Assembly (NCBI GenBank): GCA_903820285.1
Contig: CAIJGS010000314.1
Location: forward strand, 1-39,120
Source of the DNA: an uncultured Verrucomicrobia subdivision 3 bacterium
Lineage (GTDB): Bacteria > Verrucomicrobiota > Verrucomicrobiia > Limisphaerales > UBA11358
Direction of reading: 5' to 3'
DNA: 39,120 nucleotides
Below are positions 25,441 through 27,848 of this stretch, piece by piece (position 1 is the first letter of the stretch; the number at the start of each line of letters is the position of its first letter). Position numbers and translations under genes: made by a program. The notes under the pieces were generated by a model. The model worked only from the letters and a program-made list of their open reading frames with translations. It was not told where the DNA came from and searched no databases.

Positions 25441-25558
25441 CCCGGCTTCCTGATTCGTGTCCCTTCGTGTTTATTAGTGGTTCGCCTGAATCGCCGCGCC
25501 CCGCCGTATTTCGCTTTGCCCGCGCCCGGCTTTTTCATTAATGTCCCCTCATGTTCAC
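25441..25558. repeat. Two imperfect copies of a ~34-bp dispersed repeat
   Basis: CCCGGCTTCCTGATTCGTGT (25441-25460, continuing to 25474) and CCCGGCTTTTTCATTAATGT (25525-25544, continuing to 25558) are about 75% identical over 34 bp, 84 bp apart. On the minus strand the first copy can be read as TTNKHEGTRIR, a chance peptide I know from intergenic repeats of Planctomycetes and Verrucomicrobia. The second copy contains the start codon of the downstream gene (ATG 25551). Confidence 0.5.
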
Positions 25559-26237
25559 GCCCGCCGATTTGTTTGACCTTACCAAAACTGAACACGCCGC
25601 CATCTTCGACGGTTGCCAGTATGCGTGGGAAGCGCTCAAGAAGATTGAGGGCTATATCGCCGCCAACCTGAAACCCGGCCTGCACAACCAGTGCGAAGGC
25701 GCGGCCTTCATCGGCAAAAATGTCTCCATCGGCGAAGGTACCGTGGTGGAGGACGGCGTCATGATCAAAGGCCCCGCCATCATCGGCCGCAACTGCTCCA
25801 TCCGCCACAACGCCTACATTCGCGAAAACGTCATCATCGGCGACAACTGCGTGATCGGCAACGCCAGCGAACTCAAAAACGCCCTCGTCTTCAATAACGC
25901 GCAAATCCCCCATTTCAACTACGTCGGCGACTCCATCCTCGGCTACAAGGCGCATATCGGCGCCGGCGTGAAAATTTCCAACGTCAAACTCATGCCCGGC
26001 AACATCGAAGTCGAGCTCGACGGCGTGCCCTTCGACACCGGCCTGCGCAAATTCGGCGCCCTCCTCGGCGACTACGCGGAAGTCGGCTGCAACGCCGTCC
26101 TGAATCCCGGCACCATCCTCGGCCGCGGCGCCATCGTGTACCCGAACGTCTTCTGGCGCGGCATCCTGCCCGCCAATATGATCGCCAAGAACAAGGCCGA
26201 GATCGAAATCGTCGTGAAGCGCCCACGCGGAGTCTGA
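25551..26237 (+). CDS. Left-handed beta-helix (hexapeptide repeat) sugar-nucleotide/acyltransferase-like protein
   Basis: A 228-residue protein. An N-terminal helical cap (EHAAIFDGCQYAWEALKKIE) is followed by hexapeptide repeats ([IV]G..[CTV].[IV] pattern: GAAFIGKNVSIGEGTVVEDG; AIIGRNCSIRHNAYIRENVI; IIGDNCVIGNASELKNALVF) and again at residues ~170-205 (AEVGCNAVLNPGTILGRGAI). The HFNYVGDSILG stretch matches the C-terminal half of GlmU-like UDP-GlcNAc pyrophosphorylases, so this is a relative without the nucleotidyl domain. The likely activity is acyl transfer to a sugar nucleotide; the substrate is unknown. The last residues (VVKRPRGV) are basic. Confidence 0.8.
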   Translation: MFTPADLFDLTKTEHAAIFDGCQYAWEALKKIEGYIAANLKPGLHNQCEGAAFIGKNVSIGEGTVVEDGVMIKGPAIIGRNCSIRHNAYIRENVIIGDNCVIGNASELKNALVFNNAQIPHFNYVGDSILGYKAHIGAGVKISNVKLMPGNIEVELDGVPFDTGLRKFGALLGDYAEVGCNAVLNPGTILGRGAIVYPNVFWRGILPANMIAKNKAEIEIVVKRPRGV

Positions 26238-26401
26238 CGGCATTTTCCATTGGCAATGGGCAATCGCCAATTGGGCACGATTTAAGAAGCCCCGGTGGCC
26301 GGCCGCAAGGACCGTTCGGAGTCCCGCCTTTCAGGCGGTCCGACAATCGCAACCTCCATCCGTCTTATTCTGTCATTCTGTCAAAAAATCCCGCCCTGCA
26401 T

Positions 26402-26456
26402 TTGACATTCAAAAACCTGTGCTATATTACGCGGTTGGAAGTTTACATGGTAAACT
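26402..26456 (+). promoter_or_regulatory. Candidate promoter with palindromic operator, no obvious gene
   Basis: A perfect -35 TTGACA (26402-26407) with TATATT at 26423-26428 (15-bp spacer) or TATTAC at 26425-26430 (17-bp), followed by AGTTTAC-ATG-GTAAACT (26440-26456), a perfect 7-bp inverted repeat where a transcript would begin. It points into the 26.4-27.1 kb spacer, so a non-coding RNA is conceivable. Confidence 0.35.
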
Positions 26457-26655
26457 CACCGTCACAGCTAAACTCGCGCCCGGCTGTCCCGTCACCCCTT
26501 GGCGGGTCCGTCCGGCACACTTTTCCTTTGCCCCGGACCGGCACCCTCCCGGCACGGGGTGGGGACGGCTCGTCCCCACGGTCGTGGATGTTGCAGAGTA
26601 CCCAACCGCAAGGAATGCCGCGCGCCAAGGTGGCTCTCCGCAATGACCATCAAGG

Positions 26656-26709
26656 CCCAATCAAGGCAAAAAGCCCTGTAATCGTGCATAATCAAGGCAT
26701 ATCAAGGCA
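26656..26709. repeat. 54-bp direct repeat, copy A
   Basis: Begins CCCAATCAAGGCAAAAA and ends ATCAAGGCA; 47 of 54 positions match copy B at 26899-26952. The unit ATCAAGGC recurs inside (three to four times here, counting the one just upstream at 26649). Confidence 0.75.
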
Positions 26710-26780
26710 TCCGCTGAAAAGTAAAAAATGGGCGCAAACCATCAGCCAAAGTGGAACCGCGACTATGTGGCAACGAATTG

Positions 26781-26820
26781 CCGCTTTGGTCACCGCGACG
26801 CGTCGTGGTGACCAAAGCGG
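26781..26820. repeat. 40-nt near-perfect palindrome
   Basis: Arms CCGCTTTGGTCACC (26781-26794) and GGTGACCAAAGCGG (26807-26820) are perfectly complementary; the centre CGACGCGTCG is itself a palindrome and only one position (26795/26806) is a G-T wobble. It lies midway between the two 54-bp direct repeats. No T tract follows, so it is not a standard terminator. Confidence 0.8.
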
Positions 26821-26898
26821 TGTCACGATACCGCACCCCCCATCGCTCTCGATATGCCCCACCCGAAACCCGAAATCCGTGAGCTGTTCCCGGTTTTC

Positions 26899-26952
26899 CC
26901 CAATCAAGGCAAAAACCCCAGCAATCGTGCATGATCAAGCCTCATCAAGGCA
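26899..26952. repeat. 54-bp direct repeat, copy B
   Basis: Second copy of the repeat at 26656-26709, same length without gaps, seven mismatches. Conserved core AATCGTGCAT lies in the middle. Confidence 0.75.
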
Positions 26953-27104
26953 GACGCAAAAAAAGCCCAATTCCCTCGGCCGCTTGGCGCTTGGAGATTC
27001 TCTGGAGCTTGGAAATTGGAGCTTTCCCCTTCCGCCTGCCCCCTTTTCGTTGAATGCATTTTTCGGGTGCATTCCGGGGCGGACACGGTTTAACATCTGC
27101 TTTC

Positions 27105-27848
27105 ATGAAATCGCTTGAAAATCAAATCGCCGTGGTCACCGGTGCCGGTCGCGGCATCGGCCGGGCCATTGCCCTGAAATTTGCCGCCGAAGGCGCGGAT
27201 GTGGTGGTCGTTTCCCGGACCCAGGAGAATTCCGAGAAGGTCGCCGCCGAAATCCAAGCGCTGGGCCGCAAGGCTTGGGCGCATGCCGTGGATGTGGCGG
27301 ATGCTGCCGCCGTAAACGCCGCCGCCGAAAAGATCCTCGCCGAGGCCGGCAAGGTGGACATTCTGGTGAACAATGCCGGGGTGACCCGCGACGGCCTGCT
27401 CATGCGCATGCCGGATGCCGACTGGGACACCGTCCTAAACACCAACCTCAAGGGCGCGTTCCTGGTCACCAAGGCGTTTGTGCGTTCCTTCATCAAACAG
27501 CGCAGCGGGCGCATCATCAATATTTCCTCCGTGATCGGGCTGATCGGCAATGCCGGTCAATCCAACTACGCGGCGAGCAAGGCCGGCTTGATCGGGTTCA
27601 CCCAGTCCACCGCCCGCGAACTGGCGTCGCGCGGCATCACGGCCAATGCCATTGCCCCCGGTTTCATTGAAACCGACATGACCTCGGAACTGAACGAAGC
27701 ACTGCGCGCGGAGATCCTGAAGAAGATTCCGCTGGGGTGTTTAGGCCAGTCCGAGGACATTGCCGCCGCCGCCCTGTACCTGGCCAGCCCGGGTGCCCGC
27801 TACGTAACCGGTCAGGTTTTGACCGTGGATGGCGGGATGGTGATGTGA
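27105..27848 (+). CDS. fabG: 3-oxoacyl-[acyl-carrier-protein] reductase
   Basis: A 247-residue classical SDR, the usual FabG length. NADPH-binding TGAGRGIG starts at residue 12; the catalytic set is Asn114, Ser142, Tyr155 and Lys159 (SNYAASKAG). The NNAGVTRDGLLMRM and APGFIETDMTSEL segments are typical of FabG. It reduces beta-ketoacyl-ACP in fatty acid elongation in the cytoplasm. acpP and fabF follow on the same strand, forming a fab cluster. The ATG 27105 start is chosen because an upstream frame (27054) adds non-conserved residues; TAACAT (27091-27096) ends 8 nt before it. Confidence 0.95.
   Translation: MKSLENQIAVVTGAGRGIGRAIALKFAAEGADVVVVSRTQENSEKVAAEIQALGRKAWAHAVDVADAAAVNAAAEKILAEAGKVDILVNNAGVTRDGLLMRMPDADWDTVLNTNLKGAFLVTKAFVRSFIKQRSGRIINISSVIGLIGNAGQSNYAASKAGLIGFTQSTARELASRGITANAIAPGFIETDMTSELNEALRAEILKKIPLGCLGQSEDIAAAALYLASPGARYVTGQVLTVDGGMVM

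Follow-up and report, generated by a model that had tools for sequence, protein, structure and literature searches.

Intergenic mosaic repeat arrays in a young Verrucomicrobia lineage and their probable reshuffling by recombination at a common linker repeat

Mosaic repeats in intergenic DNA have been described from Neisseria, from enterobacteria and from pneumococci, and both their origin and the engine behind them are unsettled. In NIMEs, a short repeat alternates with modules of 50-150 bp in intergenic DNA; these elements occur in high copy number, are linked to rearrangements, and have as their linker dRS3, a 20-bp inverted repeat of the form ATTCCC(N)8GGGAAT (PMC9778887). BIME/REP elements and REPINs are intergenic mosaics that include hairpin units, reach high copy numbers and have a species-restricted distribution (PMC2817692, PMC3116915), and in BIMEs the palindromic REPs are arranged in alternating orientation (PMC2817692). 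The pneumococcal BOX repeats are modular and intergenic, vary in the copy number of their inner modules and contain accidental open frames (PMC3049150). A literature search on interspersed repeats in Verrucomicrobia retrieved nothing.

The DNA analyzed here, referred to as the window, is a stretch of 39,120 nucleotides from an uncultured Verrucomicrobia subdivision 3 bacterium. We consider it probable that the array in this window belongs to a lineage-private family of intergenic mosaic elements, whose units are reshuffled by recombination at a linker repeat that we named R and whose function is putative. The initial annotation had described a spacer free of genes and of a terminator, in which two 54-bp direct repeats frame a 40-nt palindrome, and each of these elements was borne out. 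The repeats (26656-26709 and 26899-26952) are identical at 47 of 54 positions without gaps, and their likeness reaches 65 bp (26656-26720 and 26899-26963, 83%), with a blastn E value of 4.8e-14 that argues against chance. The palindrome has two 20-nt arms that are 95% complementary, with one mismatch and no loop, and nothing terminator-like was found in 26230-27110. A 223-codon frame in the spacer has no Pfam match and is reduced to 81 codons in the sister species. Absent from the earlier description were the number of copies in the genome, the promoter-like head at 26399-26483, another module behind R copy 2 (27000-27024) and the fact that the palindrome and R are two separate repeat families. 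The features of the locus are listed in Table 1; fabG is followed by genes for an acyl carrier protein and a FabF-like protein, and the FabG protein encoded at the orthologous site of the sister species is 99% identical.

Table 1. Features of the array locus (positions in the window).
Feature	Position	Strand	Details
Upstream gene, hexapeptide (left-handed beta-helix) transferase-like protein	25551..26237	+	Pfam PF00132, E 1.4e-21
Head module	26399..26483	+	TTGACA 26402-26407; 15-nt spacer; TGC-TATATT (TATATT 26423-26428); palindrome GTTTACATGGTAAAC 26441-26455
R copy 1 (linker repeat)	26656..26720	+	octamer starts 26660, 26681, 26691, 26701 (spacing 21, 10, 10)
Module between R copies 1 and 2, with cloverleaf remnant	26721..26898	+	module plus one R forms a 243-bp unit
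Cloverleaf repeat (~80 nt when intact), decayed copy without its outer closing stem	26754..26843	+	82% identity with the intact copy in the window's own genome (contig C37)
40-nt palindrome, middle arm of the cloverleaf	26781..26820		
R copy 2	26899..26963	+	octamer starts 26903, 26924, 26934, 26944
Piece of a recurrent module after R copy 2	27000..27024	+	CTCTGGAGCTTGGAAATTGGAGCTT; words that recur after R in many arrays
Downstream gene, fabG	27105..27848	+	Pfam PF00106/PF13561

The initial annotation had proposed counting the copies of the repeat and the palindrome, and held that dozens of identical copies spread through the genome would indicate a simple dispersed repeat. When the genome of the window (G000, 395 contigs) was searched at the DNA level, 96 matches were obtained, mostly to R, and with a profile of R at least 109 copies were found in 40 intergenic arrays, comprising that of the window and those of 38 further regions. 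The number does run to dozens, but the arrays are ordered and polarised, which a simple dispersed repeat would not be. In the genome of the sister species (G041), at least 118 copies in 41 arrays were detected; both counts are lower bounds, since they were taken from a limited number of scored candidates. The search for R covered 97 genomes, namely that of the window, 48 from its genus and a further 48 from its order, and only these two were positive, R being absent from the 95 other relatives. Additionally, a search for the exact R pattern in a collection that represents 84,980 species by a single genome each, from which records of the window's own genome were possibly left out, gave CAIQKM01 as the sole match, and this is the sister species. 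Viral contigs contained no match to the R pattern, which leaves a phage origin unsupported. As far as the searched collections show, R thus appears to be private to one young lineage. A lack of any conservation in close relatives, also considered in the initial annotation, is not the case, because the site occurs in the closest relative in altered form. It is important to mention that both genomes are fragmented metagenome assemblies in which many arrays stop at contig ends, and that genes around the arrays were called with a simple codon model.

The arrays contain one to seven copies of R, all on a single strand, and are located in spacers between genes. The stretches between the copies have a median length of 144 nt and belong to a limited set of module families. 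Among 588 matches between like modules, the orientation relative to R was the same in 584 and opposite in 4. The columns of R from about -30 (an AAAA/CCCC tract) onward track the module that follows and not the one that precedes, so that the unit consists of the R core and its following module; this association decays gradually across R, with no single breakpoint. Many modules are made of short imperfect tandem words (CTTTGCG.., CATCTGCGTC.., TTGGATG.., GGAGCTTGG.., TTTAGCC..), and such modules recur in unrelated arrays, for example in L012, L016, L017 and at 27000-27024 of the window.

The octamers of R are ATCAAGGC, ATCAAGCC and ATCGTGC, with a few variants. They are co-oriented in 867 cases versus 4, and their spacings fall at 10, 20-21, 31, 41-42, 52 and 63 bp, with scarcely any values between. 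This spacing is helical phasing, though the values do not represent many independent observations, as part of the spacing goes back to a single ancestral R. Across 223 copies, each position of the last octamer, ATCAAGGCA, shows 97-100% conservation, in contrast to its variable neighbours; the figure is slightly inflated by the use of the best of several octamers as anchor. In the sister species, ten perfect tandem ATCAAGGTTC decamers adjoin R copies at L102:6880-6979; this run is likely a slippage product of R octamers, and it indicates that octamers can grow in 10-bp steps. Of the readings offered in the initial annotation, a protein-binding array would fit the co-oriented, phased octamers, and R is putatively such a site. 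A replication or partition site is unlikely, because about 40 arrays are dispersed through the genome and R has no bias towards the G-rich strand (15 of 38 and 14 of 40). The R consensus has no inverted repeat and is non-palindromic, and three foldings of R as RNA were no better than shuffles (z 0.72, -0.06 and 1.38).

Upstream of at least 34 arrays, at a distance of about 110-350 bp and always on the strand of R, a segment similar to the head module of Table 1 was found. Its consensus comprises TTGACATT or a variant, TGC-TATATT and the palindrome GTTTACNTGGTAAAC, and among the 97 genomes searched it is limited to the two R-bearing species. Judged by its sequence, the head looks like a promoter of the extended -10 type, in which an operator-like palindrome lies close to where transcription would be expected to begin, and it is predicted to act as one. 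A standard sigma-70 scan of the window with spacers of 16-18 nt did not call the head, whose spacer is 15 nt. Heads with no R found beside them occur on C151, C14 and C212 of G000 and at L024:6555, and the head may be spreading on its own.

The palindrome is part of a cloverleaf repeat in which a closing stem (TGGAGT/ACTCCA) encloses three hairpins. For the 95 nt around the palindrome, the folding energy is -46.1 kcal/mol (z -4.75), a value reached by 0 of 200 shuffles. In an alignment of 14 cloverleaf sequences, 92.9% of the cells are paired, a percentage favoured by the exclusion of five irregular members, and 47 double changes were counted versus 17 in shuffles (0 of 500 as many), far above slid controls; eight of the 14 rows were turned round for this alignment. 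Since the closing stem was fixed by the search pattern, it is helices 2-4 that carry the covariation evidence. The suggestion of a structured RNA fits the palindrome, which lies in a covarying cloverleaf family, and does not fit R, which folds no better than shuffles. The only Rfam match scored 19.8 bits where the gathering score is 36, lies outside R and is at chance level; a CRISPR array or known RNA was rejected for want of an Rfam match at the gathering score. Related copies of the cloverleaf were found in 11 relatives that have no R, and matches to a second module family (CGAGCGCCAACGGCGCGG...) in 16 such relatives, partly over short stretches. With at least two module families found in relatives that lack R, the modules tested come from repeats common in the order, and it is R and the head that are private. 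In G063, a genome of the same order, a first look gave 283 and 137 candidates for the two module families, and related repeats may have undergone a large expansion there.

At the window's orthologous site in the sister species, the head is 95.0%, the upstream gene 93.7% and the right flank 91.9% identical. This site holds one R and lacks the 243-bp unit; its single R corresponds to R copy 1 of the window up to the word AATCGTGCAT and to R copy 2 after it, the 3' half being identical to that of copy 2. Because no outgroup carries R, a gain of the unit here and a loss in the sister both fit. In 21 paired loci, the best cross-species match lies at a non-orthologous array for 65 of 82 units and at the orthologous array for the remaining 17. 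Tandem amplification of units is seen in L096 and L114, and L018 contains five R copies, while its ortholog L203 has zero R and the last module alone. The two flanks of L013 map to two contigs, and for L024, L031, L037 and L043 one flank only was found in the sequence pieces searched, where the data may be incomplete; a joined flank query covered five loci and one flank of a sixth. Synteny breaks at arrays are possible. Whole units are gained or lost and most of the array content is turned over, while the aligned flanking DNA of the two species stays about 80-98% identical. With at least 227 copies in 81 sampled arrays of two sister species that are still this similar, the turnover is traceable almost step by step, from the gain, loss and tandem amplification of units to exchanges from one locus to another and to places where synteny is possibly broken at an array.

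In the mechanism that we favour, R (about 55-65 bp) serves as the repeated linker between modules from a limited library, and units would be exchanged, duplicated and deleted through homologous recombination or slippage between R copies. Because these copies are direct repeats, orientation would be kept during exchange. At the window, the 243-bp unit would have been gained, or lost in the sister, by an exchange inside the shared word that joins the two halves of the sister's R. The suggestion of a mobile-element end comes close in spirit, the arrays being intergenic mosaics that rearrange, but neither an enzyme nor element ends came to light. Recombination at R does not account for the original arrival of heads and arrays at about 40 loci. 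More tentatively, the phased octamers may be bound by a cellular protein, a partner to which the strict polarity and the helical phasing point, and many arrays may be transcribed from their heads.

The binding of a protein could also be what maintains the arrays. Selection of the phased octamers as sites for a nucleoid or regulatory protein, with shuffling as a side effect, is a possible reading, and one compatible with recombining mosaic arrays. It draws on the co-orientation and helical phase of the octamers, on the conservation of the last octamer next to variable neighbours (slightly inflated by the anchor choice) and on the downstream gene, which is more often co-oriented with R (24/11 and 27/13, p about 0.04 each), but no R-binding protein is known, and orthologous arrays range from none to five R copies, so that few of the sites can be essential in place. 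The slight excess of co-oriented genes leaves room for an effect on downstream genes, and would also suit a transcribed regulatory leader, in which the head is predicted to drive RNA through the array and thereby control the gene after it. We regard this reading as unlikely: the head is always co-oriented where it precedes an array and the palindrome folds strongly, but the downstream gene is opposite in orientation at about a third of the arrays, array content is not conserved between the sister species and G000, and R does not fold. The frame that runs from the head ATG (26447) through the array to the start of fabG was considered as a repeat protein, given its GGAAG-N5-ATG-like start, its 223 open codons and, over all arrays, a lower number of stops than in the other two frames. 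Such a protein is extremely improbable, because the start position is ATG, TTG or CTG depending on the head and the frame of the ortholog ends so early; moreover, the spacings of R are mostly non-multiples of three, and Pfam gave no match.

The fixed polarity, the sites of about 60 bp and the promoter-like head upstream recall an integron, with R as attachment site and the modules as cassettes, but we hold this to be very unlikely. No integron integrase (TIGR02249 over the cut-off) was found in G000, which is 91% complete, or in G041, which has a partial match, versus 8 of 18 genomes tested; the R copies folded no better than shuffles as an attC-like site under RNA parameters; the modules are gene-free and also occur elsewhere without R; and the module association fades across R instead of ending at a single point. 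Integrases over the curated cut-off were seen in the same-genus genomes G001, G011, G016, G021, G026, G027, G037 and G046. It is just as doubtful that Y1 (RAYT) transposases mobilise the palindromes as REPs, with R as a by-product. Y1 transposases do occur (6 and 5 matches) and the palindrome family is hairpin-rich and widespread, but most modules are non-palindromic, as is R, whose copies show a single orientation with no alternation, and the transposases are equally common in relatives without R; with Y1 genes in 18 of 18 genomes tested, a Y1 transposase as private engine was set aside as not distinguishing. An undescribed directional assembly, in which a private recombinase or a helically cooperating protein on the R octamers would join modules in one orientation into promoter-headed arrays, seems improbable as well; if true, such a system would quickly rewire the regions upstream of genes. 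Recombination between R copies in mosaic arrays remains our preferred explanation.

Compared with the described systems, the R arrays share with NIMEs the alternation of a short linker with longer repeated modules in intergenic DNA, as well as a high copy number and a link to rearrangements. The R consensus, however, does not contain dRS3 and has no sequence relation to NIMEs, and unlike the NIME linker, R is 55-65 bp long, is built of non-palindromic, phased direct octamers, is always co-oriented and is accompanied by a promoter-like head. With BIME/REP elements and REPINs, the R arrays share an intergenic mosaic build, hairpin units, a high copy number and a restriction to few species, but in contrast to BIMEs, R is not palindromic and all of its copies in an array are co-oriented. 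With BOX they have in common a modular build, a variable copy number of the inner modules and accidental frames, whereas BOX has a fixed set of boxA, boxB and boxC and the R arrays join many unrelated modules by one linker. Integron cassette arrays are similar in polarity, in sites of about 60 bp and in a promoter-like region upstream, and differ in that the R arrays lack an integrase over the cut-off, a foldable site and module genes, and occupy dozens of loci. The R arrays are thus built like NIMEs and resemble BIMEs, and they fail a defining feature of each.
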